Shown: positions 2,403 to 29,796 of the stretch, piece by piece
Layout: every line of letters begins with the position of its first letter
How positions within the stretch are numbered: position 1 is the first letter of the stretch
Origin: an uncultured archaeon
Lineage (GTDB): Archaea; Thermoplasmatota; E2; DHVEG-1
Length of the DNA: 53,297 nucleotides
Assembly: GCA_902384685.1 (NCBI GenBank)
Contig: CABMCU010000073.1
Coordinates: forward strand, 1 to 53,297
Reading direction: 5' to 3'
Program-made: the position numbers and the translations under genes
Notes under the pieces: model-generated
Database searches by the model: none
Told to the model about the DNA's origin: nothing
Seen by the model: only the letters and a program-made list of their open reading frames with translations

Positions 2403-3338
2403 TTGGTTAAAAAAGAAAAGCAGACAATAGAAGAGATCGTTCAATGTCCTGAATGTGGGAGTAACCATCTGAGTAAAGATTACTCTCGGGCAGAATTGGT
2501 GTGTAGAAATTGCGGATTTGTTCTTGATGAAGATATCATTGATCATGGACCTGAATGGCGAGCGTTTGATAGCGAACAGCGGGAAAAACGAGCTCGAACT
2601 GGGGCGCCAATGACGTATACCATTCATGATAAGGGACTCAGTACGATGATCGGATGGAAAAACAGAGATTCCTATGGGAAGTCAATTCCAACGAGAAATA
2701 GAGCGCAGATCTACCGTTTGAGAAAATGGGCACGGCGTATTCGGATTAGCGATGCAACAGAGAGAAGCCTTGCTATTGCATTTTCTGAGCTTGATAGAAT
2801 GGCATCAGGCATGGGACTTCCAAGAACGGTGAGGGAGACCGCTGCTGTGATTTATAGAAAAGCAGCATTGAAGAAATTGGTCCGTGGTAGAAGCGTAGAA
2901 GGTGTTATCACTGCAGCTTTGTATGCGGCATGCCGGCAGTGCCATGTGCCACGTACGCTTGATGAAATAAGTAGCATAGCACATATATCGAGGAAAGAGC
3001 TCGGAAGGACCTATAGATATGTCTCCCGTGAATTAGGATTAAGATTGTTACCGACTTCACCAGAGGATTATATTTCAAGGTTTTGCAGTGAACTGAAACT
3101 TAGTGGTGATGTGCGAGTGAAGACCTTGGAGATATTACAAGATGCTACATACCGAGAACTTACGAGTGGACGTGGCCCAACGGGTATGGCAGCAGCATCT
3201 CTCTATATTGCATCAGTTCTTTGTGGTGAACGGAGAACACAACGTGAGGTAGCAGATGTCGCAGGTGTAACAGAAGTCACCATTCGAAATCGCTACAAGG
3301 AAATCACAAAAAAACTAGATATAGCCATTGGCTTGTAA
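2403..3338 (+). CDS. tfb: Transcription initiation factor TFB
   Basis: The 311-aa protein is the archaeal TFIIB homologue that bridges TBP-DNA and RNA polymerase. Cys15, Cys18, Cys34 and Cys37 form the N-terminal zinc ribbon. The B-reader/linker follows with the [19 protein letters not shown] segment. Two cyclin-like repeats occupy about 110-205 and 210-311. Translation appears to start at TTG 2403; a TTTATATA box about 45 bases upstream supports a short leader. Only one TFB is seen in the window. The conserved B-finger suggests a functional general factor. Confidence 0.97.
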
Positions 3339-3524
3339 GTTTACCGTTCTCCCTATTTACTCTTCTTTATAGTTGTTAAGATTATTTCCATTGAAGATAC
3401 ATTGGAGGCTCTACCTTCTTCGTTGGTGAGGCTATCGTTTCCAATTTTTATCTTTTTTATTGTTGCATCTGTAACAAACCTGTTTCTCACATGATAAGCC
3501 ATATTACGTGGGGAAATGCAGGAG

Positions 3525-3564
3525 CAGTGAGGGTCAAAACCTGTATCAAACCCTCAAATCACTG
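3525..3564 (+). other. Bulged stem-loop in the TFB downstream region
   Basis: CAGTGA plus GGGT at 3525-3534 pairs with ACCC at 3550-3553 and TCACTG at 3559-3564, with a 15-base loop and a 5-base bulge (TCAAA). The 3339-3639 gap has no long frame. A TATA-like ATTATATAG at about 3588-3596 starts the next transcript, so the stem belongs to the TFB 3' end or to a separate small RNA. Function is unknown. Confidence 0.35.
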
Positions 3565-3639
3565 ACCTCCATCCGTCAATGTATAGCATTATATAGTGAT
3601 TGTATTATTTACGCAACCCAAAAAAGGATGTAATGAAAA

Positions 3640-3813
3640 ATGTATCGAGACAATAATAGAGGCGGTGGCTATGGTGACGCACCCCGAGTAATGCATAAGG
3701 TTACATGTGCAGATTGTGGAAAAGAAACTGAAGTTCCCTTTAAACCAGATGGTTCTAGGCCAGTTTACTGTCGGGACTGTTATCAGAAACATCGGCCACC
3801 AAGGAGATATTAA
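3640..3813 (+). CDS. 57-aa CxxC-x17-CxxC zinc-ribbon protein
   Basis: ATG at 3640 opens a 57-codon frame. Cys23-x2-Cys26, exactly 17 residues, then Cys44-x2-Cys47 matches the CxxC-x17-CxxC small zinc-binding family common in archaea. The N-terminus is Gly/Asn/Arg-rich (RDNNRGGGYGD) and the C-terminus basic (HRPPRRY), as expected of a nucleic-acid-binding protein. The family function is not established to my knowledge. AAAGGATG lies upstream and a TATA-like box sits at about 3588-3596. It lies between TFB and the thermosome gene. Confidence 0.8.
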   Translation: MYRDNNRGGGYGDAPRVMHKVTCADCGKETEVPFKPDGSRPVYCRDCYQKHRPPRRY

Positions 3814-3923
3814 ATATCTCTTTTTTTTTATTTTTTTCTTTAAAAAACGATTAATTTTGTTTGAACAAGTAAAAGATCCTTCATTTCAGACCGTATTATC
3901 GGCCTGGATCGACCTTCATTTTC

Positions 3924-4039: not shown

Positions 4040-5701
4040 ATGATGGCTGGAGGACAGCAACCAATTATCATCCTTAGAGAAGGAACGAAGCGAGATAAAG
4101 GAAAAGGCGCACAGTTAAACAACATTATGGCAGCACGAGCAATCTCCGATGCAGTGAAATCAACACTAGGTCCGAAAGGAATGGACAAGATGTTGGTCGA
4201 CTCTATGGGTGATGTGGTTATCACGAACGATGGAGCTACTATTCTTAAAGAAATCGATGTTGAGCACCCTGCAGCGAAGATGATCGTTGAAGTCGCCAAA
4301 TCACAAGATGAAGAATGCGGCGATGGAACAACATCAGCGGTGATTCTCACCGGTGAGTTGTTAAAATACGCTGGAGAACTTATCGAGCAGAACATCCACC
4401 CGACCGTTATCTGCGCAGGATACAAGCTTGCAGCAACCAAAGCAATTGTTGAACTCAACAAAATGGCGATACCGATAAAACCAGGGGACAAGAAAACCCT
4501 GAAAAACATCGCGATGACCTCGATGGCTAGTAAAGGTGCGAGCGCATCGAAAGATCTCCTCGCGGACGTCGTCGTTGACGCAATTACCAGCGTCGCAGAA
4601 CATATCGGTGATAAAACCATCGTTTATATGGACAACATCCATATCCATAAGAAACACGGCGGTAGTATCCAGGACACCAGGATTATAAAAGGTATCATTC
4701 TGGATAAAGAACGCGTCCATGAGGGAATGCCCCGACATTTAAAAAATGCAAAAATAGCACTTGTGAACGCGGCCTTAGAGATCAAAAAAACAGAGATTGA
4801 TGCACGTATTCAAATCCAAGACCCTACCCAGCTGCAAGCATTCCTTGATGAAGAGGAGTCCATGCTACGGAAAATGGTTGAGAAAGTCAAAAAAAGCGGT
4901 GCGAACGTTCTAATATGTGAGAAAGGCATTGATGATCTTGCGCAACATTTCCTCTCCAAAGAAGGTATTTACGCAGTTCGGAGCGCGAAGAAAAGCGACA
5001 TGGACAAACTCGCAAAAGCAACCGGCGCAACCGTTGTCGCAAACCTTTATGAGCTCTCAACAAAAGACCTCGGATTCGCAGGAACTGTCGAGGAGCAAAA
5101 GATCGGCGATGACAAGATGACGTTTGTTACGGACTGCAAGAATCCAAAGGCAGTCTCCATTCTTATACGCGGTAGCACCGAGCATGTAGTTGACGAACTT
5201 GATCGTGGTATGCACGATGCGTTGTTTGTTGTGAAAGTCGCTCTGGAAGATGGTAAAATGACAGCTGGTGGAGGCGCAGCCGCTACATGGATTGCTATGG
5301 CGTTACGAGAATATGCTACCACAGTCGGTGGACGAGAGCAGATGGCGATCGAAGCCTATGCAAACGCAGTTGAAATCATCCCCAAGACCCTTGCTGAGAA
5401 TGCGGGGTTGGATCCTATCGATATGATGCTTGAGGTACGCAGATCCCACAAGAAAGGCGGCAAGTACGCTGGTATTGACGTGTTAAATGGAAAAGTCAGT
5501 GACATGTTAAAAATCAATGTCATCGAACCACTTCGCGTCAGCGTCCAAGAAGTACAAGTCTCAACCGAAGCAGCAACCATGATCCTTCGGATCGACGACG
5601 TCATCGCCTCAAAGGGTGGCGGTGGTGGCGGAATGCCTCCAGGTGGACCTGGTGGTATGCCCGGTGGAATGCCTGGTGGCGGTGGGCTAGACGATTACTA
5701 A
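4040..5701 (+). CDS. thsA: Thermosome subunit, copy 1 (group II chaperonin)
   Basis: The 553-aa ATP-driven chaperonin folds proteins inside a double ring in the cytoplasm. The family signatures are present: LGPKGMDKMLVDSMGDVVIT near residue 45-64, the GDGTTS phosphate loop, and a Gly-Met-Pro repeat tail ending DDY. It is about 95% identical to the copy at 28129-29796. Differences cluster in a few places, for example VYMDNIHIHKK where copy 2 has VDMDNIQIEKK, and NLYELS versus NLDELS. These Asp/Glu changes might affect assembly into mixed rings; that is inference. A T-run follows the stop. Confidence 0.97.
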   Translation: MMAGGQQPIIILREGTKRDKGKGAQLNNIMAARAISDAVKSTLGPKGMDKMLVDSMGDVVITNDGATILKEIDVEHPAAKMIVEVAKSQDEECGDGTTSAVILTGELLKYAGELIEQNIHPTVICAGYKLAATKAIVELNKMAIPIKPGDKKTLKNIAMTSMASKGASASKDLLADVVVDAITSVAEHIGDKTIVYMDNIHIHKKHGGSIQDTRIIKGIILDKERVHEGMPRHLKNAKIALVNAALEIKKTEIDARIQIQDPTQLQAFLDEEESMLRKMVEKVKKSGANVLICEKGIDDLAQHFLSKEGIYAVRSAKKSDMDKLAKATGATVVANLYELSTKDLGFAGTVEEQKIGDDKMTFVTDCKNPKAVSILIRGSTEHVVDELDRGMHDALFVVKVALEDGKMTAGGGAAATWIAMALREYATTVGGREQMAIEAYANAVEIIPKTLAENAGLDPIDMMLEVRRSHKKGGKYAGIDVLNGKVSDMLKINVIEPLRVSVQEVQVSTEAATMILRIDDVIASKGGGGGGMPPGGPGGMPGGMPGGGGLDDY

Positions 5702-18064: not shown

Positions 18065-18670
18065 TCATTCCCAAACGAGAATTATACAGAACCTACATAG
18101 TACCTCCGAATGCAAAAATCTACCAAGGAAGTCATCAATTTTGGATTGTTTCTCCTTAGGAATTGAGTAATACCTGTTTATTGATTCCTTAATTCTCCGT
18201 GTCTTCCTCCAATGATTTTTACCAAGGAACACCCTTTTCTCATGAATATCGATGTCAGTGTTGAAAACCTGCGATACCTTCGCTAGATCTTGATATGAGA
18301 TAATCCTCGATGTATTCTGCTTCATCAACTCTAAGAGGGCAAGTTTATTCTTATCCTCTAGATAATAACAGGATTTATTCTTGAACTGAGACCGTTTAAT
18401 CGAAGGAAAATATCGTTGTAATGCTCGGAGAGCATTCCGATTCTCCTCTGTATAGACATATCCTTTCGCTATAAGTTGCTTCAATAGTTCAAGTGGTTTT
18501 CCGCTGACGTACGGCTCCCGTTTGTATTTATTTGGGAGATCCTTTGTATGTTTGTAAACTGTTGTACGATCGATATGCATCTCCTTGGAAACCTGGAACT
18601 TCGATTTACCTTTCAGAATTTCCTCTCGTATTTGCTGAATATCCTCTTTAGTAAGATGTCGTATCATCAC
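18065..18670 (-). CDS. 201-aa helix-turn-helix protein, complete copy
   Basis: The N-terminal 50 residues form a homeodomain-like HTH (IQQIREEILKGKSKFQVSKE, then MHIDRTTVYKHTK). The rest is basic and has a second possible helical domain. A related partial copy lies at 21548-21746, covering the codons for about 84-147. Together they flank the peptidase gene as direct repeats. Promoter motif P lies near 18690-18712, only 19 bases before the start, so a leaderless mRNA or a later start (Met2) is possible. It may be a regulator or a mobile-element gene. Confidence 0.65.
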   Translation of the reverse strand: MMIRHLTKEDIQQIREEILKGKSKFQVSKEMHIDRTTVYKHTKDLPNKYKREPYVSGKPLELLKQLIAKGYVYTEENRNALRALQRYFPSIKRSQFKNKSCYYLEDKNKLALLELMKQNTSRIISYQDLAKVSQVFNTDIDIHEKRVFLGKNHWRKTRRIKESINRYYSIPKEKQSKIDDFLGRFLHSEVLCRFCIILVWE

Positions 18671-18845: not shown

Positions 18846-21296
18846 ATGGTTTTTAGTAAAATTTTTTCTCGAAAAAAGATAATAGCGTTATTTTTATCAT
18901 TGATAATCTTTTGTAGTTCAACAAGTGTAATTTCTATTTCTTATAATATGAACACAATTCAAAAAACAAACGAGTATAAAAAAGAAAATTTTGAAGTTGA
19001 TCAAAAATTTATTTATCAAATAATAGAAAATTTAAGTCATATATGCTATAATTATTCTCAAGGAAGAACTTATGGTACATCTGGAGAAAATTTTGCGGCA
19101 AATTATATTTATGATTTTATGGATAAAATTAATCTTAAAAACAATTATCTTGAAAAAATTTGCGATGAATCTCTTCTTTCAATTTATCCAAATATTACAA
19201 GATACAAATTAATTGATGATAAAATTCAAATAAACGGTTTTAGTCTAAAAATATATGAAAATGGTACTGCTGAATCTCCCGAATGTTTCCCGATAGCATC
19301 AGGAGCAAATAATCCAATATATGACATTTTTAATTATAATTATAGTTATAAAAATCTAAGGTTGCTTCCTGGAGATATTTTTGATACAAATTTTTTCTTA
19401 CAAAATTCAATATCATTTCCATGTAAATTAAATAACTATAAATCTATGATTATTGGAGAAATTATATTACCAAGAAATGACACAATTTTTAATAGCTATG
19501 ATGATAATAAAATAATTTTATTGGATTCAAATAATTCACAGATATTTACTAAGCAAGAAAAAGATATTAAATATCCAAAATTCGTATTATCATATGATTC
19601 CAATAATAAATATGATTCGTATGCTAATACTACATTTATTCAAGTTTCAAAAGAAAATTGGTATAAAATAAAAGAATTAGTTAAAAAAGAAAATGTTATT
19701 ATAACAAATATCATTTCTGACGGAAATATTACATTAATATATAATTATGAAAAAATTATTGAAGATAAATTTGGACCAATAGATTTTGAGTATATGTTTA
19801 TAGAAGGAATGCCCTCAATAAATCAAACATATACTGAACTTAAATGGAAAATATTGAAAGAATTTAATTTGAGTTATTATAGTCTATTATTTCTTAAAAC
19901 ATATATATGGGGTGCCATTTGGAAAATTGGAAATAAATGTCGAGGTGGCATAATATACGACAACGATAACGAGACCCATTTGATGATATGTTCATTAAAA
20001 GATTATAATTATATTGACATAAGTCAAGCAGGAGGAGCAACATGGCCATATACTCCCCTGTTTTCTATTAATAATACTATAGGTTCAAAATTATACAAAG
20101 ACGCCTGTTTAAAAATTAGCGAGAAAAAGTATAAAGTTGAATATTATCTAGATCAGAGCTATAATGAAAGTGCTATTAGTTACAATGTAGCAGGTAATAA
20201 TAGTAAATATGAGAATGATAGTAAAATTGCTATAATAAGTGCTCATTATGATGGATATTGGGGTCAATCTAGTGCAGATGATGCTGTTGGAACCTCAATT
20301 ATGCTTGGAATTGCAAAATTAATCGAGGATTATAAACTTGAATCTAAATATAAAATTCGATATGTCGCTTTTGCCGGAGAAGAGTATGGATTTCGTGGTT
20401 CTCATTTTCATAATTTATTTCATTTTAATGACAGTATCGCATATGTTATTAATTTTGAAGAAGAAGGATTTGAACAACATAATCCACCAGTTAAATTATT
20501 ATTATATTCACCAAATGGATCGATTTTAGATGCTGCAGAAATAATTCTTGAAGATATAGGTTATTTTGAAAAAACTCAAACTGAAATTGAAAGAAACAAA
20601 AAACCAGGCCCAAGTGATGAATCAGTATTTGTTAAGAGACCAGGAATTAATACTTTTTGTTTTGGAAAAGACCATAACTGGACAGATTATCATAAAACAG
20701 GTCTTTCTAATAAAGTAGGAGATTGCATTGATAATATTAATAAAAGTTTACTGAATATTGTTTCTGAATTTTCTTGGAGAATGGTTGAATATTTATTATT
20801 TAATCCAAATTGTTGGTTTACGAATATTTCATTTACATCTTTTAATTCAAAAAATAATAAAAATAATAAAAATGATTCGATAATGATACATTTCAGCATT
20901 AATTCAGTAATACCAAAAGACAAAATAATGCTCAAGATTTATTATCGAAATGAAGATAATCTGAATGATTATTATCATTTGTATCAGATAGAAAATTTTA
21001 TTATTGACTCGACTGTCTTGAAAAAAAACATAATTTTTAGTCTGAACGATAGTATAATTAATGGAGATTATTCTATAAAACTTGAACTTTACAATTCTAC
21101 TGGAAGAATAAATGAAATTATGAATATTAATAATAAAAACTATAATGACACAGCCTCGTCGAATATCCTACATCTGGAATCTTCATTGCTTCATCAAGAA
21201 AAAATATCTATTTTTAATTATGTATTTAAAAATTTTTTAAATGAAAATAATATTATAAAACTAAAGATTTTTTTCGATTACATTCTAAGGAAGTAA
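18846..21296 (+). CDS. Secreted M28-type metallopeptidase, very AT-rich
   Basis: The 816-aa protein starts with a signal peptide or anchor (KKIIALFLSLIIFCSS). The M28 aminopeptidase zinc site is recognisable: SAHYDG, SADDAVGTS, the catalytic pair in AGEEYGFRGS and a late His in DYHKTG. A large N-terminal region before about residue 440 is not recognised and may hold a PA-like insert. The C-terminal 150 residues look beta-rich. Codon use is extremely AT-biased compared with its neighbours, and the gene lies between two copies of an HTH gene, so recent transfer is likely. A GGGGG-containing binding site precedes ATG 18846. Confidence 0.8.
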   Translation: MVFSKIFSRKKIIALFLSLIIFCSSTSVISISYNMNTIQKTNEYKKENFEVDQKFIYQIIENLSHICYNYSQGRTYGTSGENFAANYIYDFMDKINLKNNYLEKICDESLLSIYPNITRYKLIDDKIQINGFSLKIYENGTAESPECFPIASGANNPIYDIFNYNYSYKNLRLLPGDIFDTNFFLQNSISFPCKLNNYKSMIIGEIILPRNDTIFNSYDDNKIILLDSNNSQIFTKQEKDIKYPKFVLSYDSNNKYDSYANTTFIQVSKENWYKIKELVKKENVIITNIISDGNITLIYNYEKIIEDKFGPIDFEYMFIEGMPSINQTYTELKWKILKEFNLSYYSLLFLKTYIWGAIWKIGNKCRGGIIYDNDNETHLMICSLKDYNYIDISQAGGATWPYTPLFSINNTIGSKLYKDACLKISEKKYKVEYYLDQSYNESAISYNVAGNNSKYENDSKIAIISAHYDGYWGQSSADDAVGTSIMLGIAKLIEDYKLESKYKIRYVAFAGEEYGFRGSHFHNLFHFNDSIAYVINFEEEGFEQHNPPVKLLLYSPNGSILDAAEIILEDIGYFEKTQTEIERNKKPGPSDESVFVKRPGINTFCFGKDHNWTDYHKTGLSNKVGDCIDNINKSLLNIVSEFSWRMVEYLLFNPNCWFTNISFTSFNSKNNKNNKNDSIMIHFSINSVIPKDKIMLKIYYRNEDNLNDYYHLYQIENFIIDSTVLKKNIIFSLNDSIINGDYSIKLELYNSTGRINEIMNINNKNYNDTASSNILHLESSLLHQEKISIFNYVFKNFLNENNIIKLKIFFDYILRK

Positions 21297-21547: not shown

Positions 21548-21746
21548 TTATCCAAATTGATTAGTAATTTCAATATCTGCGTTAAAAACCTGGGATACTC
21601 TTGCTAAATCCTGATATGAAATGATCCTTGTAGTATTCTGCTTCATCATTTCCAGGAGTGCGAGCTTATTTCTATCTTCCAGATAGTAACATGATTTGTT
21701 CTTAAACTGAGATCGCTTTATTGAAGGGAAATACCGTTGTAATGCT
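21548..21746 (-). pseudogene. Fragment of the HTH gene
   Basis: From AGCATTACAACG (21746) the minus strand encodes ALQRYFPSIKRSQFKNKSCY and onward, matching residues about 84-147 of the protein at 18065-18670 with few changes, then diverges (EITNQFG) to TAA at 21548. The HTH N-terminus is missing. The fragment starts exactly where the methylase gene loses its own frame, so this is a recombination junction. Confidence 0.8.
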
Positions 21747-23877
21747 GTCCTATTACAACTGGTTTGATGTAATCGCCTATTTTTTCATCCGATCTCATTA
21801 ATTCCTTTCTCGTTATTTCATCTACAATAAACGCCTCGTTTAATCCAGTTTTTAAACCGTAAAAAATTTTATTTCCGACATAGTCTTCAATCGGTATACT
21901 ATTGGCCTTTATTTTTTTTAGAATATCATTTGCCTCTTTCCTTTGGATGTTCCAATCATTCTCTCCAAATTCCTTTTGATTTATTATAAACTGTTTACTT
22001 TTAATATACTCCTCTAAAGAATCAAAATTCAGTGTTTCCATTTTACACACTTGGATTTTTGGATTTAGTTTGTTTATTTTTCTTATTACGATTATACAAG
22101 GATAAATTGTTGCTTCTGGAAATACCTTAAGGTCTCCAAAATCAATGAAGGTTTCTATCCAATATTTACTAATAAATTTACGTAAATTGGCTCCGTAACC
22201 TGCTCTAAGCCACTTGTTAGATACAATCATTCCGAAGTAACCGCCATCTTTAAGTAACTTGATTTCACGTTCAAAGAAATATACATATAAATCGGCCATC
22301 CCATTATACACTTCATAATTTTTCTGGAGGTATGGTTTTAATGCTGAAAATTCCTCCTGTCTTACATATGGTGGATTGCCGATTACAACATCGAAACTTC
22401 CTTCTTTAAAATCTCCCTGCCATTTGAATGCATTATATTCTACAATAGTTTCATCGTCAATTACGGAATTACCATGTTTAATGTGTAAATCTATTTCTTC
22501 TGGTAATCTCCTATTTTTCTCTGCCGCTTTTAATAATAGATTTAATTTTGTGATCTCAACAGCTTTATTATCCAGGTCAACCCCGTAGAGATTATTTTTC
22601 AATATCTCCGTTTTTACAGAATATAAGCCCTGACTATCAAACATACGTTGTTTTGAACTTTTTTCAGATGAAATATTTACACGTAGATAATCAAATGCTT
22701 TAATCAAAAAAGAACCAGAACCACACGCAGGGTCTAGAACCTTAATTTTCTTTGCCTTAATCTTCTTATCTTTTAACAATTCCCCGACAGTGTTTTTAAC
22801 GATGTAATCCACAATATAGGTGGGAGTATAATATATCCCTTGCTCTTTTCTGTGTGCCTGTCCATTTGTAAGTTTTGCTTTCCCTGTTTTACTTTCCAAT
22901 AATATTTTACCCAAGTATTGTTCATAAACCTGTCCAAGAAGATCGGCAGTTATCCACTCAAAATTATAGATATATCCTTCATTTTTTGAAGTATAAAGAT
23001 ACCGAATAAGTTTCTTAATAATCTCGCCATTGATTGTTATTTTATCGCAATCATTATCCTTATTAATAGCAAATAATCCACTGTTATAGACATCATTGTA
23101 TTTTTCAAAAATCTCTTTTAACTTCGAGTATGCTCTGTTATCTGGAACTGCTACTGCATCTTTCAGTATCAAATTCTCAGGATTGATTCCCGTATCTTCA
23201 CATTTTCTGATAAAAATAAGTCGGTCAATGATTCTTTGAGTTATCTCTTCCTTTTCATTTGGTTGGTATTTCCCATGATAAATTTTTTCTATATCATCAG
23301 CTATGTACTTTCGTATTAAAATTAAATCGTCGAGAAGCGGTTTATCTATCGTAATCCTTTTCTTTAATAATCCTAGATTTTCTGCCTTCTTCAATAACAG
23401 GTTTTGTTCAAAACTTGATTTAGATAGTAATAATAAATCATGGATATTTTCAATATATTCCTCTGGTGTACTAAATACCATTATTTTCCTTTTAACAATA
23501 TTTTCTTCTTCTACACAAAATACCTTTAATTCCTCAAAATTTGTAGAGATCGCAATAGGAACCGATTTTGATAAGGCATAGGATACAACCTGTGTATCTG
23601 CATCTTTATATAATGGTACACCGATTTTTTTTACCTCCAAGAAGAATACTTTTTTATCTCCAATGTAAAATGTGTAATCAGCGAAACCTCGTTTACCTTC
23701 CCGTTGTGTCTTTTCTCGTTTTTTAAAATCCTTTTCTGTCCAACCCAGATGTTTGAATAACGGTTCGATTAGTTTTGTTTCTATAGATGCCTCAGATTCT
23801 TTTTTGTATTCCTGATAGTTTATTCTAAATTCATCAATCAGGTTTTGTACTTTTGTTTTTATCTGTTCATCAGTCAT
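21718..23877 (-). CDS. Nuclease-methyltransferase fusion (type IIG-like), 3'-truncated
   Basis: The 719-aa frame has a PD-(D/E)xK nuclease near the start (GFADYTF, then FFLEVKK with Glu81 and Lys83), a helical linker, and an adenine methyltransferase core: DPACGSGSF at 382-390 and NPPY at 501-504. This is the layout of Eco57I/type IIG enzymes that cut and methylate. The target-recognition domain should follow but the frame ends shortly after, and the last 7-8 residues (from HYNGI) come from an HTH fragment read in the wrong frame. Specificity is probably lost. It is the last gene of the operon starting at 26167. Confidence 0.8.
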   Translation of the reverse strand: MTDEQIKTKVQNLIDEFRINYQEYKKESEASIETKLIEPLFKHLGWTEKDFKKREKTQREGKRGFADYTFYIGDKKVFFLEVKKIGVPLYKDADTQVVSYALSKSVPIAISTNFEELKVFCVEEENIVKRKIMVFSTPEEYIENIHDLLLLSKSSFEQNLLLKKAENLGLLKKRITIDKPLLDDLILIRKYIADDIEKIYHGKYQPNEKEEITQRIIDRLIFIRKCEDTGINPENLILKDAVAVPDNRAYSKLKEIFEKYNDVYNSGLFAINKDNDCDKITINGEIIKKLIRYLYTSKNEGYIYNFEWITADLLGQVYEQYLGKILLESKTGKAKLTNGQAHRKEQGIYYTPTYIVDYIVKNTVGELLKDKKIKAKKIKVLDPACGSGSFLIKAFDYLRVNISSEKSSKQRMFDSQGLYSVKTEILKNNLYGVDLDNKAVEITKLNLLLKAAEKNRRLPEEIDLHIKHGNSVIDDETIVEYNAFKWQGDFKEGSFDVVIGNPPYVRQEEFSALKPYLQKNYEVYNGMADLYVYFFEREIKLLKDGGYFGMIVSNKWLRAGYGANLRKFISKYWIETFIDFGDLKVFPEATIYPCIIVIRKINKLNPKIQVCKMETLNFDSLEEYIKSKQFIINQKEFGENDWNIQRKEANDILKKIKANSIPIEDYVGNKIFYGLKTGLNEAFIVDEITRKELMRSDEKIGDYIKPVVIGQHYNGISLQ

Positions 23878-23948
23878 AAGTAAGATGTGATATTGTTCGT
23901 TTCTTCTTTAATTTTTGGCAATGACTCATCCCATTAATTCTTGATTGT

Positions 23949-24728
23949 CTATATACATTTTTTTGGGGGATAATACAATCCGATAATCATCCAGACAGGA
24001 TACATGGAATGAGTCCCAACAAAAAAATGTAAATCACATTTTTCTATCATCATTGTATAATATCTTTGATAGATTTTCTCCCATAATACTTCAGGAGTTT
24101 GATAAATATGACGCCAACTACGATACGATTGAAATAATTCCCAATCTTCACAAGTCATATTATGATTACATAAACAACTCTTTGTGCAAGAAAAATGGTA
24201 TTTGAATATATGTGGCAATTCTTCCAAAAGTGTCCTTTCTTCACCCAATAAAGTCATTTGTCTCCCTTGAATAATATCAGTATCCATATCTTCAAGAGGT
24301 TTAGTTGTAAAAAAATTATGAATAACCGATGGTTTAACAAGTCCTAAAGATGTTCTCTCTTCTTTAAAATCAAATTGTAAATCTTCTATTGTACATTTAG
24401 GCATCGATAATATTATTTTATCCCGTTCTTCCCAATTTACTGGTTTTTTTGTTAGTAGATCATCAATAATTTTAATGGAATCTGGACGAAGTTTAAAGCT
24501 TTCTTTTCTACTTAGTTTTTCATCAGTTGCTTTTTTTACATCGGCTTCAATCCAAGTGTATTTAGGTATTTTTGTTCCACCTCTAAAAGTTTCAAATGGG
24601 ACAGGATAAATTCTTATCCACTCACCATCTTCAGTAATCCCTGCTGTACAGACTACAGAACCATGTCTTTTACTACTTTCTGGATATGCCTTTACAACCA
24701 ACAATATCTTCTTTTTTTCCCAGCTCAT
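23949..24728 (-). CDS. 259-aa uncharacterised protein of a ParB-methylase operon
   Basis: The start resembles a family I have seen but cannot name: KAYPESSKRHGSVVCTAGI followed by GEWIRIYPVPF. The middle has an acidic/basic KYTWIEADVKK segment. A Cys/His cluster (FSCTKSCLCNHNMTCEDWE, about 180-198) probably binds metal. Its ATG overlaps the parB-like stop by 4 bases (ATGA), so the proteins are made together. It could be a nuclease or modification component; that is inference from context only. Confidence 0.6.
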   Translation of the reverse strand: MSWEKKKILLVVKAYPESSKRHGSVVCTAGITEDGEWIRIYPVPFETFRGGTKIPKYTWIEADVKKATDEKLSRKESFKLRPDSIKIIDDLLTKKPVNWEERDKIILSMPKCTIEDLQFDFKEERTSLGLVKPSVIHNFFTTKPLEDMDTDIIQGRQMTLLGEERTLLEELPHIFKYHFSCTKSCLCNHNMTCEDWELFQSYRSWRHIYQTPEVLWEKIYQRYYTMMIEKCDLHFFVGTHSMYPVWMIIGLYYPPKKCI

Positions 24729-25738
24729 ACAATCATTTCAATATTTTTTTTCTTTTTAATTTTAAAAATTATTGTATTCACTGTTTCATTTGGATCCCAG
24801 TTTCCATGAAGATTTTTCCATACTTCCTTAAATTCTTCAAGTGTATATCCACCCTCTCGTTTGGCATCTTCTTCTGTAAAATCTCCTAATTTTTTCTTTT
24901 CAATTTTTTTAACAATTAAGTCTGCAAAAGCTGGTTGCCAAAGATTTGCTCTTATTATTGCTCCTTCTCTAATTTTAGGATCAAGCGATTTTCTACTTGT
25001 CTGTATTTTTATCCCATCTAATATAGGTTTCATATGAGAGAGTCTAAATATTAATTCGGCTGGTTCTTGTTCCACTTCTTCAACCAATTCCTTAATAGAT
25101 TTATTTTTGTCCTGTTGAACCTTTTTCGTTATTTTTATTACATCGTCCCTTGTTATTTTTTTTTCTGCTACTTCTTTAACAAGTTCTAATTGTTTTGATG
25201 GTTCTTTTACTGTTTTTGCTATTATTAATGCCTCTCTACTTGCTATCTTACCTATTGGCGTTCTTCCTCTTTCATCTGCTGTAGCTACATATTTTTGAAT
25301 TTCTGGAGAGATTTCCCGAAATGCAGAAATCCATCTGTGAATGGTAGTGGTTCCAAAACCCAATTTTTCCCCCATGGAGAAAATTGTTGGATAATCTGTT
25401 GAGTAATCCTCCATTAATTTAGTACAACATTTTCCTTTTTCAATATCAGTCAAATCTTCCCTTTCAATATTCTCTATGAGATTCAATTCGATAACTTCTT
25501 TATCTGAAAATTGTTTTATGATTGCTGGGATTTTGTCTAATCCAGCTTGTTTTGCGGCTCTATATCTTCTTTCACCCACAACAACTTCATAATAATCATT
25601 TTTTTTCCTAATAATGATTGGTTCAAGCAAACCGAATTTTTTAATACTTTTAGATATTTCATCAATTTTTTCCTTATCGAATGATGATCTCGGATTCAGT
25701 CTATTTGGCTTAATTCTTCTTAAATCTATTTCTGACAT
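24725..25738 (-). CDS. ParB/Sulfiredoxin-like protein fused to an ASCH domain
   Basis: The 337-aa protein begins with a ParB N-terminal domain (about 1-95: IKPNRLNPRS, VVGERRYRAAKQAG, NLIENIERED) and a KorB/Spo0J-type HTH (about 96-165, with FGTTTIHRW). ParB-like domains bind CTP or act as nucleases. The C-terminal part (about 228-330, SHMKPILDGIKIQTSR, then GAIIRANL) is an ASCH fold, which binds RNA or modified bases. The combination beside a restriction-methylase suggests defence rather than chromosome segregation. AAGGG lies 6 bases before the ATG. Confidence 0.75.
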   Translation of the reverse strand: MSEIDLRRIKPNRLNPRSSFDKEKIDEISKSIKKFGLLEPIIIRKKNDYYEVVVGERRYRAAKQAGLDKIPAIIKQFSDKEVIELNLIENIEREDLTDIEKGKCCTKLMEDYSTDYPTIFSMGEKLGFGTTTIHRWISAFREISPEIQKYVATADERGRTPIGKIASREALIIAKTVKEPSKQLELVKEVAEKKITRDDVIKITKKVQQDKNKSIKELVEEVEQEPAELIFRLSHMKPILDGIKIQTSRKSLDPKIREGAIIRANLWQPAFADLIVKKIEKKKLGDFTEEDAKREGGYTLEEFKEVWKNLHGNWDPNETVNTIIFKIKKKKNIEMIV

Positions 25739-25762
25739 ATTTTTCCCTTGTAAAACAAATAG

Positions 25763-26167
25763 TTATTTTAATTTCCAAACTATTCCTCTTTTTCTATCTC
25801 TAATTCTAATTAATTGAATATCTTCTTCTAATTTTTTTACCCATTTATTATTAGGGACTTTTTGTGGGAAATTTTCAATTTTTTTTATATCTGTCCATGT
25901 CAGACCAGATGAATTTTTATTTAATAACAATTTAATTCTTTCTTTAAATTCCTTATACGGAAGTTTCTCTTCTTTTTTTATAAGAATTTCTTTAATTTCT
26001 CCATTTTTCAAAGATTTTATTATGAGAGTTTTTCCTTGTATTTCGTCTTTTAACCATTCTCCTTCTTTCCATCCTATTTTTTCAATTGTGGATGGTGGAA
26101 TTACGATAATCCATTTTGGATATTCCTTATTATCTACAACTCTCGATAATTGTTTTTGTAATCTCAT
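25763..26167 (-). CDS. AbrB-like regulator, first gene of the operon
   Basis: The 134-aa protein has a swapped-hairpin AbrB/SpoVT-like N-terminus (WIIVIPPSTIEKIGWKEG, then LIIKSL) and a C-terminal part resembling a small winged helix (GLTWTDIKKIENFPQ). It is probably the autoregulator of this operon; the inverted repeat at 26203-26259 next to its promoter is a candidate site. It is 24 bases upstream of the parB-like gene. Confidence 0.55.
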   Translation of the reverse strand: MRLQKQLSRVVDNKEYPKWIIVIPPSTIEKIGWKEGEWLKDEIQGKTLIIKSLKNGEIKEILIKKEEKLPYKEFKERIKLLLNKNSSGLTWTDIKKIENFPQKVPNNKWVKKLEEDIQLIRIRDRKRGIVWKLK

Positions 26168-26194: not shown

Positions 26195-26273
26195 TTATAA
26201 ACTTTTAGGTGCCGAAAAGTATAAATAGCGTGTAATGTATATACATTAGGCACCTAAAATTATAAGTGCCTAA
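26195..26273. promoter_or_regulatory. Divergent promoter with an 11-bp inverted repeat
   Basis: TTTTAGGTGCC (26203-26213) and GGCACCTAAAA (26249-26259) are perfect arms. GTGCCTA (26266-26272) is a further arm pairing with TAGGCAC (26247-26253). A minus TATA-like GTTTATAATA (26195-26204) serves the operon; a plus AAAAGTATAAATA (about 26215-26227) serves the transposase. The repeat may be an operator or the end of the insertion sequence. Confidence 0.45.
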
Positions 26274-27900
26274 AGGGAGTTTAGGGCTCCCTCAGGCTGG
26301 AGACAAACGAATGCTGCTAGGCAATCGAAATATCTCCAAAGAAACCATAGAATTGGAGATATATAAGATATTCGAGCAATGCAAACAAGAAAAAGAAATC
26401 ACGATAGTGGATTATCTCAATCGATTACATTTAGATTGTTTTAATGATAATTACCGATCTATAAAATTCCCATACGAATCATTATTCAAACTCCTTATTT
26501 TTCAGGAACTCAAAGGAATAAAATTCCAAGCACAACTAGAAAGATACCTTCGGTTGCATAAACAAGAGCTTCACAAACTCAACATGACATCAGTACCAAA
26601 CCAAAGGACGATAAGTTATTTCATCAATAATATTCTTGATGAAGAAACAAAACAATTGATAGATTTTATCGCCTCGAAAATTGAGGAAGTCTCAAACAAA
26701 TTCGGAATACTACTCGATACAAATATCATACAACCAACACAACCTAAAAAACAAGCAGAACGAACATACTACCATAACAAAAACATCAAGATAAGAGAGA
26801 TCAGCACTCTTTTCAAGAAACGTTTTTCATCTGTAATCGAACTGAATACCAAGAGAAATTCCGTTTACCAAAAAAATGATTTCATCGACCTCGTGCTTCA
26901 TATGTGTAACACGAATGACTTCGCAGAAAACGGAAGTAAAACATTCCAACTACAGAGAACAAAGACCCCAAATGGAGACACGCTCCTCTATCATCTGAAG
27001 GATTACAAGGATATCTACCAGATGAAACGCATGTTCGTCTCGATGTTTGAGATGATCTGGGAGACCGCACGCAAAGCAAACCAATTCCACAAGATAGTTG
27101 ACTGTTCTATTGATTACACAGGTTGGCACTATTATGGAGACAAGAATGCCCCGATGGTCACTGAGGGCAAACCTGATCGAGGGACTACACACTACTATAA
27201 ATTCGCCACAATAACCATATCGGAACGAAATCAACGATTCACACTCCTAGCAATACCTGTTGGACCATTTGACAACAAACAGGAGATACTCAGAACGCTC
27301 CTTGAATATGCAATGCAACGGATGAAGATAAGACGATTGTATGTTGATAGAGGGTTCTTTGACTCTGAATCCATACAACTCTTCAAGTATTACCATCTAA
27401 AATTCCTCATGCCATGCACAGCTAACGAACGAATCAAAAAGATACTTGAGATTGTTCCATCTCCAACAGTAATCAAAGATTATGAGATGAAAAGCGCTGT
27501 GTTTAACGTTGTTGTTGTCAATGATGAAAATGGTGTGAAGAGAGCGTTTGCGACCAACATAGACTTCAATGAAAACGATGTCGGATTAGCAGAGCGATTA
27601 TTCAATCTCTACAGCAAACGATGGGGAATAGAAACATGCTACCGAGTGAAGAAACATTCATTCAGACCAAAGACCACATCAAAGAATTATTTCATTCGAT
27701 TGTTTTATTTTATGTTCTCAGTGTTATTGTACAATCTTTGGCTCCTTACAGATATTCTCGTATGCTTAGCTGTTCTAGGTGTCTTCAATGGTAACCATAT
27801 CATTACATCCAAGTATTTCTGTAGCATTTTTGTTTTGGTGGATCCTGGAGGCTGAAACAATGTCGTCTGTCCTTATTTTTATTAACATAACTTTTAGCGG
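26203..27900 (+). mobile_element. Insertion sequence with intact DDE transposase (ISH3/IS4 type)
   Basis: The element contains one transposase gene. Its left limit may be near the inverted repeat at 26203-26259. I could not find the matching right inverted repeat or a target duplication, so the ends are approximate. The right side lies near 27900, about 110 bases before the promoter block of thermosome copy 2. Confidence 0.55.
26311..27855 (+). CDS. DDE transposase, ISH3/IS4-like
   Basis: The roughly 514-aa transposase has the DDE pattern: Asp in VDCSIDYTGWHYYG, Asp in LYVDRGFFDSE and Glu in KRWGIETCYR with the downstream KHSFRPKTTS, as in IS4-superfamily (ISH3-like) enzymes. It appears intact. 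I start it at ATG 26311; a TTG 45 bases upstream would only add IS-end sequence. No strong ribosome binding site precedes it, as is usual for transposases. Confidence 0.85.
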   Translation: MLLGNRNISKETIELEIYKIFEQCKQEKEITIVDYLNRLHLDCFNDNYRSIKFPYESLFKLLIFQELKGIKFQAQLERYLRLHKQELHKLNMTSVPNQRTISYFINNILDEETKQLIDFIASKIEEVSNKFGILLDTNIIQPTQPKKQAERTYYHNKNIKIREISTLFKKRFSSVIELNTKRNSVYQKNDFIDLVLHMCNTNDFAENGSKTFQLQRTKTPNGDTLLYHLKDYKDIYQMKRMFVSMFEMIWETARKANQFHKIVDCSIDYTGWHYYGDKNAPMVTEGKPDRGTTHYYKFATITISERNQRFTLLAIPVGPFDNKQEILRTLLEYAMQRMKIRRLYVDRGFFDSESIQLFKYYHLKFLMPCTANERIKKILEIVPSPTVIKDYEMKSAVFNVVVVNDENGVKRAFATNIDFNENDVGLAERLFNLYSKRWGIETCYRVKKHSFRPKTTSKNYFIRLFYFMFSVLLYNLWLLTDILVCLAVLGVFNGNHIITSKYFCSIFVLVDPGG

Positions 27901-28128: not shown

Positions 28129-29796
28129 ATGATGGCTGGAGGACAGCAACCAATTATTATCCTTAAAGAAGGAACGAAGCGAGAAAAAGGAAAAGGCGCA
28201 CAATTAAACAACATTATGGCAGCACGAGCAATCTCCGATGCAGTGAAATCAACACTTGGTCCAAAAGGAATGGACAAGATGCTGGTTGACTCTATGGGTG
28301 ATGTAGTCATCACGAATGATGGAGCAACCATTCTTAAAGAAATCGATGTTGAGCACCCGGCGGCAAAGATGATCGTCGAAGTTGCTAAATCACAAGATGA
28401 AGAATGCGGTGACGGAACAACATCAGCCGTGATTCTTACTGGTGAGTTGTTAAAATACGCCGGAGAACTTATCGAGCAGAACATCCACCCAACCGTTATC
28501 TGTGCAGGATATAAGCTCGCATCAACCAGAGCAATTGCTGAGCTGAACAAAATGGCGGTACCGATAAAACCAGGAGATAAGAAAACCCTGAAAAACATTG
28601 CGATGACCTCGATGGCTAGTAAAGGTGCGAGCGCATCAAAAGAACTCCTCGCGGACGTCGTCGTTGACGCGATTACCAGTATAGCAGAACACATCGGTGA
28701 TAAAACCATCGTAGACATGGACAACATCCAGATCGAGAAGAAACACGGCGGCAGTATTCAGGACACCCGGATTATAAAAGGAATCATTTTGGACAAAGAA
28801 CGTGTTCATGAGGGAATGCCACGGCATGTAAAAAATGCAAAAATAGCACTTGTGAACGCAGCCTTAGAAATCAAAAAAACAGAGGTTGACGCACGTATTC
28901 AAATCCAAGACCCTACTCAGTTGCAAGCATTTCTTGATGAAGAGGAATCTATGCTACGAAAAATGGTCGAGAAAGTCAAAAAAAGCGGTGCGAACGTTCT
29001 GGTCTGTCAGAAAGGCATCGATGATCTTGCACAACACTTCCTCTCCAAAGAAGGTATTTACGCAGTCCGACGCGCGAAGAAAAGCGATATGGACAAACTT
29101 GCAAAAGCAACCGGCGCAACCGTTGTTGCAAATCTTGATGAGCTCTCGTCAAAAGATCTCGGATTCGCGGGAAATGTCGAAGAGCAAAAGATCGCCGATG
29201 ACAAGATGACGTTTGTCACGGATTGCAAGAATCCAAAGGCAGTCTCCATTCTTATACGCGGTAGTACTGAGCATGTGGTCGACGAACTTGATCGTGGTAT
29301 GCACGATGCGTTGTTTGTCGTGAAAGTCGCTCTGGAAGACGGTAAAATGACGGCGGGTGGAGGCGCAGCCGCCACATGGATTTCTATGGCGTTACGAGAA
29401 TATGCTACCACCGTCGGTGGACGAGAGCAGATGGCGATCGAAGCCTACGCAAACGCAGTTGAAATCATACCCAAGACCCTTGCTGAGAACGCTGGGTTGG
29501 ACCCAATTGATATGATGCTTGAGGTACGCAGATCTCACAAGAAAGGCAGCAAGTACGCTGGTGTTGACGTGTTAAATGGAAAAGTCAGTGACATGTTGAA
29601 AATCAACGTCATCGAACCACTTCGCGTCAGTGTCCAAGAATTACAAACCTCAACTGAAGCAGCAAACATGATCCTCCGGATCGACGACATCATCGCCTCA
29701 AAGGGTGGCGGTGGTGGTGGAATGCCTCCTGGCGGTATGCCTCCTGGCGGCGGAATGCCCGGTGGAATGCCTGGCGGCGGGATGGACGACTACTAA
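28129..29796 (+). CDS. thsB: Thermosome subunit, copy 2
   Basis: The 555-aa chaperonin subunit is about 95% identical to copy 1 at 4040-5701. All ATPase motifs are intact (GPKGMDKML, GDGTTS). Its tail GGMPPGGMPPGGG...DDY has one more repeat than copy 1. Positions that are Tyr or His in copy 1 are the usual Asp or Gln here, for example VDMDNIQIEKK, so copy 2 is probably closer to the family norm. grpE starts 31 bases after its stop and dnaK follows, so the three may share the heat-responsive promoter. Confidence 0.97.
   Translation: MMAGGQQPIIILKEGTKREKGKGAQLNNIMAARAISDAVKSTLGPKGMDKMLVDSMGDVVITNDGATILKEIDVEHPAAKMIVEVAKSQDEECGDGTTSAVILTGELLKYAGELIEQNIHPTVICAGYKLASTRAIAELNKMAVPIKPGDKKTLKNIAMTSMASKGASASKELLADVVVDAITSIAEHIGDKTIVDMDNIQIEKKHGGSIQDTRIIKGIILDKERVHEGMPRHVKNAKIALVNAALEIKKTEVDARIQIQDPTQLQAFLDEEESMLRKMVEKVKKSGANVLVCQKGIDDLAQHFLSKEGIYAVRRAKKSDMDKLAKATGATVVANLDELSSKDLGFAGNVEEQKIADDKMTFVTDCKNPKAVSILIRGSTEHVVDELDRGMHDALFVVKVALEDGKMTAGGGAAATWISMALREYATTVGGREQMAIEAYANAVEIIPKTLAENAGLDPIDMMLEVRRSHKKGSKYAGVDVLNGKVSDMLKINVIEPLRVSVQELQTSTEAANMILRIDDIIASKGGGGGGMPPGGMPPGGGMPGGMPGGGMDDY

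Follow-up and report, generated by a model that had tools for sequence, protein, structure and literature searches.

A ParB-HTH-ASCH protein in the place of DUF488 beside the PDC-M19B protein in an archaeal operon

An archaeal operon pairs a ParB-HTH-ASCH fusion with a member of the PADLOC family PDC-M19B (hereafter M19B). The unit is a variant, lacking DUF488, of the pair DUF488-M19B (PDC-M19). It lies on the minus strand of a 53,297-nucleotide stretch of DNA, here called the window, which is contig 73 of an archaeal MAG (2.06 Mb, 85.5% complete). A first-pass annotation had described a four-gene operon at positions 21718-26167, ending with a type IIG-like enzyme. All four open reading frames are present in that interval, on the minus strand, but they do not form one intact four-gene system. 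The core is three genes, AbrB, ParB-HTH-ASCH and M19B, because ParB-HTH-ASCH takes the place of DUF488 in three genomes in which no DUF488 gene was found.

The last gene of the core (23949-24728, minus strand) encodes a protein of 259 aa. Three PADLOC models, all called PDC-M19B, recognise the protein, the best of them with E 3e-61 over residues 4-257. There was no match in Pfam or NCBIfam, and a sequence search of the PDB with M19B gave nothing convincing. The Cys/His cluster reported in the first-pass annotation is genuine; residues C27, C181, H189 and C193 are invariant across 46 relatives, as is the motif D195-W196-E197 (DWE). Structure prediction, proposed earlier as a check, gave a confident AlphaFold2 model (pLDDT 92.5, pTM 0.90) made of tandem OB folds. 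The best hits in Foldseek were to proteins with tandem OB folds (RPA, Teb1, HIN-200 and telomere end-binding protein), most of which bind single-stranded DNA. The E-values extend down to 7e-5 and the TM-scores are low (0.2-0.4); hence, we claim the fold class alone. Being modelled as tandem OB folds, M19B probably binds nucleic acid.

We scanned one genome per species, from 84,980 species, for M19B and recovered 50 loci besides the window. DUF488, which we take to belong to the rhodanese-phosphatase superfamily, was found near M19B in 46 of the 50. The two genes are directly adjacent in 45 loci and about 1.5 kb apart at L081. In 31 loci they run in the same direction and overlap by 4 bp. The DUF488 protein paired with M19B is the PADLOC family PDC-M19A. 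Its fusion partners vary. They include a ParB-HTH module, in four Lokiarchaeota loci and on the Sulfolobus plasmid pSOG1, as well as AbrB domains and SocA-like winged helices. Two of the 50 loci (L076 and L077) carry ParB-ASCH instead of DUF488. A further two have neither partner; L071 begins at a contig end and L083 contains a partial M19B only. No match to DUF488 was found anywhere in the window's genome, or in the genomes that contain L076 (G199) and L077 (G390). It is unlikely that DUF488 is missing through a chance gap in all three incomplete genomes.

Comparison with PDC-M19, as defined by PADLOC, is instructive on both sides. M19B of the window is matched over its whole length, and the gene order and 4-bp overlap are kept. 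The AbrB part is also present, as a domain in PDC-M19 and as a separate gene in the window. Conversely, no M19A was found in the window's genome and ParB-HTH-ASCH fills the slot, so that a rule requiring M19A would miss the window. No publication on PDC-M19 was found in the literature searched, and none of the DUF488 literature found concerns the DUF488|M19B pair. Since ASCH replaces DUF488, the exchange suggests that the two domains perform comparable work for M19B.

The ParB-HTH-ASCH gene (24725-25738, minus strand) encodes 337 aa. As the first-pass annotation had it, ParB and ASCH domains are fused in a single protein (Pfam ParB_N 2e-31, ASCH 2e-6), and the gene is coupled to that for M19B, by the 4-bp overlap at 24725-24728. 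The N-terminal part resembles ParB of ParABS systems in having ParB_N and an HTH with a GERR box, and the box (GERRYRA) is intact. None of the genes directly flanking or forming the unit (M19B, AbrB, IIG and transposase) encodes ParA; the remaining open reading frames of the window were read by eye. Full-length relatives adjoin M19B at L076 (57% identity) and L077 (45% identity). The former is in Candidatus Thermoplasmatota archaeon PFL35, of the same family as the window's genome, and the latter is in an Acidobacteriia bacterium. At both, ParB-HTH-ASCH directly precedes M19B, as in the window. The co-occurrence that the earlier annotation had suggested looking for does recur. For the M19B family as a whole, the neighbourhoods are mixed. 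These three ParB-ASCH|M19B loci are the only ones known, and the ParB-ASCH protein is rare. In a search of 347 Acidobacteriota genomes, G390 is the only one with a full-length ParB-ASCH among the matches listed; the others match in ParB_N/HTH only. A tblastn search of plasmids with the ParB-ASCH query gave matches to ParB domains only. Viral contigs contained one weak ASCH match, and no M19B was found in them using the archaeal M19B pattern. A 2025 survey of ParB-CTPase-fold fusions describes, in its accessible part, the same joining of a ParB fold to ASCH, enriched in archaea, and a DUF488-HTH fusion that bound CTP (PMC12704722). Neither a coupling to M19B nor an operon nor an exchange of DUF488 for ASCH is described in that part of the survey.

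The ASCH domain (24740-25069, minus strand) has YqfB (1te7), the E. coli N4-acetylcytidine amidohydrolase, as its closest solved structure. The match was found by hmmsearch with a three-sequence profile (E 1.3e-4); phmmer with the single ASCH sequence gave no match. Beyond the shared ASCH fold, YqfB residues K21, T24, R26 and E74 are retained in the window as K244, T247, R249 and E295, residues that do not vary among the three ParB-ASCH proteins. Conversely, YqfB residues D27 and H70 are replaced by Lys and Asp, the domain is fused to ParB, and its substrate is putative. A Lys/Thr/Arg motif is common to many ASCH domains. Hence, the retained residues are compatible with YqfB-type catalysis and nothing more. 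ParB-ASCH may sense nucleic acid or modified bases, as the first-pass annotation suggested. In YqfB, which acts on N4-acylcytidines, K21, T24 and R26 are required and loss of E74 leaves activity 100- to 1000-fold weaker (PMC6972931). Conservation of these four residues, with YqfB as best solved relative, would suit a nucleotide-salvage or RNA-turnover operon in which ASCH is a YqfB-like N4-acylcytidine amidohydrolase of ordinary metabolism. We consider this improbable given the rare and patchy distribution, the fusion of ASCH to ParB-HTH, its swapping with DUF488 and the variable partner of M19B.

The first gene of the operon (25763-26167, minus strand) encodes an AbrB-like and winged-helix protein of 134 aa, for which Pfam gave no match. 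A profile comparison related its N-terminus to AbrB domains in the partner proteins of M19B (hhalign E 3e-5, probability 73%). The C-terminal winged helix, at residues 71-133, is the sole part that AlphaFold2 models. An AbrB structure from AlphaFold2 was dropped because the model is too poor at the N-terminus. At L072, an AbrB-wHTH-DUF488 fusion adjoins M19B, and its N-terminal part is homologous to the window protein over the full length of the latter (E 2e-31, 46% identity). Hence, the AbrB gene of the window is tied to the DUF488|M19B pair.

The first-pass annotation had placed the operon beside an insertion sequence. An ISH3-like DDE transposase gene (26311-27855, plus strand; NCBIfam NF033541 2e-44, below its cut-off) does adjoin, as a single copy in the window's genome. 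It is no chance neighbour, because it is divergent from the operon both in the window and at L076, where the gene order matches and a transposase open reading frame 53% identical to that of the window lies ahead of the operon. Between the transposase gene and the operon, an inverted repeat TTATAATTTTAGGTGCC...GGCACCTAAAAGTTTATAA surrounds TATA-like sequences (26198-26264) and is a candidate operator. The intergenic region, including the repeat, is 80% identical between the window and L076. Of 380 Thermoplasmatota genomes, only that of the window and PFL35 have the pattern TTAGGTGCC-N25-40-GGCACCTAA. Each has it a single time, upstream of the AbrB gene of this operon. We also considered the arms of the repeat as termini of the insertion sequence. 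This was rejected; TTAGGTGCC is found exactly only twice in the window and, since both copies are at the operon promoter, it is without a terminal partner.

Identity between the window and L076 is uneven along the operon. It is 75% for AbrB, 50% for ParB_N, 36% for the HTH-linker, 86% for ASCH and 39% for M19B. In a tree of 46 M19B proteins, the window and L076 fall in distant groups. A clade uniting them was rejected with a p-AU of 5e-5, a value that is optimistic because the group was chosen with the tree already in view. Taken with the uneven identities, this rejection points to exchange; ParB-HTH and M19B appear to have been replaced against a constant background of promoter-AbrB and ASCH, judging from two loci. 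Near the operon of PFL35 is a gene for a radical SAM protein (L076:4135-5928) with a weak C-terminal match to EVE, a PUA-like modified-base reader domain. Beside it is a Cas4-like PD-(D/E)XK gene (L076 3406-4044).

The fourth gene (21718-23877, minus strand) is outside the core. Its product is type IIG-like, as first annotated (best PADLOC model 2e-102; HSDR_N_2 3e-6, Eco57I 1e-45), but it is truncated C-terminally, with 719 of about 1000 aa. The match to the PADLOC model runs no further than position 737 in a profile of 1011, and a related protein encoded by an E. coli plasmid has 998 aa. In the type IIG class, target recognition is carried by the C-terminal part. The window protein is short by about 270-300 aa and has lost this region. 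A whole-genome DNA search showed that the IIG gene runs, at its 3' end, into a fragment of an HTH gene (21566-21746, minus strand). The fragment is 79% identical to part of the intact copy at 18065-18670. Because the aligned junction falls inside the open reading frame, the last nine IIG residues (QHYNGISLQ) are out-of-frame HTH-gene sequence. No other IIG-family copy was found in the window's genome. The gene is a probable pseudogene and a degraded neighbour; the junction, which is read from a MAG, may be a misassembly.

Its membership of the unit, as originally claimed, is not supported. If the IIG nuclease-methylase were directed by ParB-ASCH together with the 259-aa protein, the four genes would make up one restriction system. 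In favour of this, the gene is 71 bp downstream of the core, on the same strand and of similarly low GC (0.31). Relatives of the pair do occur in R-M operons, and a distant IIG is near the pair at L072. Even so, the gene is absent at L076 and L077 and has lost its target-recognition part in the window, and we regard such a system as very improbable indeed. For the same reasons, truncation and absence from the relatives, IIG was ruled out as the effector of the unit. An 816-aa M28-like peptidase gene (18846-21296, GC 0.25) has the intact HTH gene on one side and the paralogue fragment on the other. This arrangement suggests that the DNA was rearranged locally, in an event by which the IIG gene was cut as well. 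Elsewhere in the window, two very similar thermosome genes (4040-5701 and 28129-29796) are 24 kb apart.

The suggestion that the unit is a defence system stands in part. The family of the 259-aa protein is already listed as a phage-defence candidate, and plasmids, phages and type I R-M operons all contain relatives. The gene order HsdR-DUF488-M19B-HsdS-HsdM is shared by L046 and L082, and that of L048 is DUF488-M19B-HsdS-TBP-HsdM. L037 and L040 contain HsdR-DUF488-M19B and then a partial HsdS at the contig end. The TBP of L048, a Methanoregula locus, is a TATA-binding-protein gene (3305-3820, Pfam TBP 6e-30) that separates hsdS from hsdM in the type I R-M operon. Embedding of this kind is seen in about five of the 50 M19B loci. 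Among 111 near neighbours of M19B, HsdS is the commonest class (four or five), and the remainder are mostly single housekeeping families; L077, for example, is flanked by a peptidase and a Na/H exchanger. Because embedding is limited to few loci and other neighbours are mostly housekeeping genes, the R-M link is real for one subset and not general. "Defence island" is likewise too strong a term, since many M19B loci adjoin housekeeping genes. The guard nuclease gene prrC is placed within a type I locus (PMC12707154). DUF488|M19B is similarly located, between hsdR and hsdS, in L046 and L082, whereas the window's copy is outside any type I operon. We know of no sequence relation between PrrC and DUF488|M19B.

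On bacterial plasmids, with Streptomyces and Rhizobium pairs as examples, M19B and DUF488 are convergent, end to end. The genes are also convergent in Gordonia phages, as gp43 (M19B) and gp42 (DUF488), between repressor and integrase. In Gordonia phage Eviarto (L091:4033-6280), they have the gp44 immunity repressor on one side and the gp39 integrase on the other, an interval in which accessory genes are often found in prophages. In the Sulfolobus islandicus plasmid pSOG1 (L090 3936-5864), the annotated partition protein ParB is a ParB-HTH-DUF488 fusion adjoining M19B. Hence, the pSOG1 protein may be no partition protein.

Carriage on plasmids and phages, the ParB and AbrB domains and the conserved divergent transposase would also suit a module that serves to regulate or maintain an integrated mobile element. 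Such a module would be partition or toxin-antitoxin-like, with ParB and AbrB binding DNA and no antiviral role. Conversely, no ParA was noted near the pair at the loci examined, the pair can be embedded within type I R-M operons, and its contexts are chromosomal in many archaea. We thus hold element maintenance to be the main rival but rather unlikely. If a single reading is to be chosen, we prefer a defence or guard role. With moderate confidence, we propose that the unit is an autoregulated AbrB / ParB-HTH-ASCH / M19B operon, a mobile-element-borne accessory or guard module like those in type I R-M operons.

In such an accessory or guard module, AbrB, ParB-HTH or both would keep expression of the operon low by binding to the TTAGGTGCC inverted repeat. 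The OB folds of M19B would bind single-stranded nucleic acid, which M19B would present to the partner. The C-terminal domain of the partner, DUF488 elsewhere and ASCH in the window, would then read a modified base or nucleotide or process it chemically. Acting as a switch that depends on CTP or NTP, the ParB domain could tie the action of M19B and ASCH to DNA binding. More speculatively, and with considerable doubt, these proteins might form a modular defence family. It would combine M19B as an OB-fold protein that binds nucleic acid, an interchangeable base-acting domain (DUF488 or ASCH) and interchangeable DNA-binding switches (AbrB, wHTH or ParB-CTPase). N4-modified cytosines of invaders would be the target of the ASCH variant, which would either deacylate or sense them. 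The operon joins, in one testable unit, the uncharacterised PDC-M19 pair, the archaeal ParB-ASCH fusions of the 2025 ParB survey and the function of ASCH domains in prokaryotes. The embedding of DUF488|M19B in archaeal type I R-M operons provides an obvious assay.
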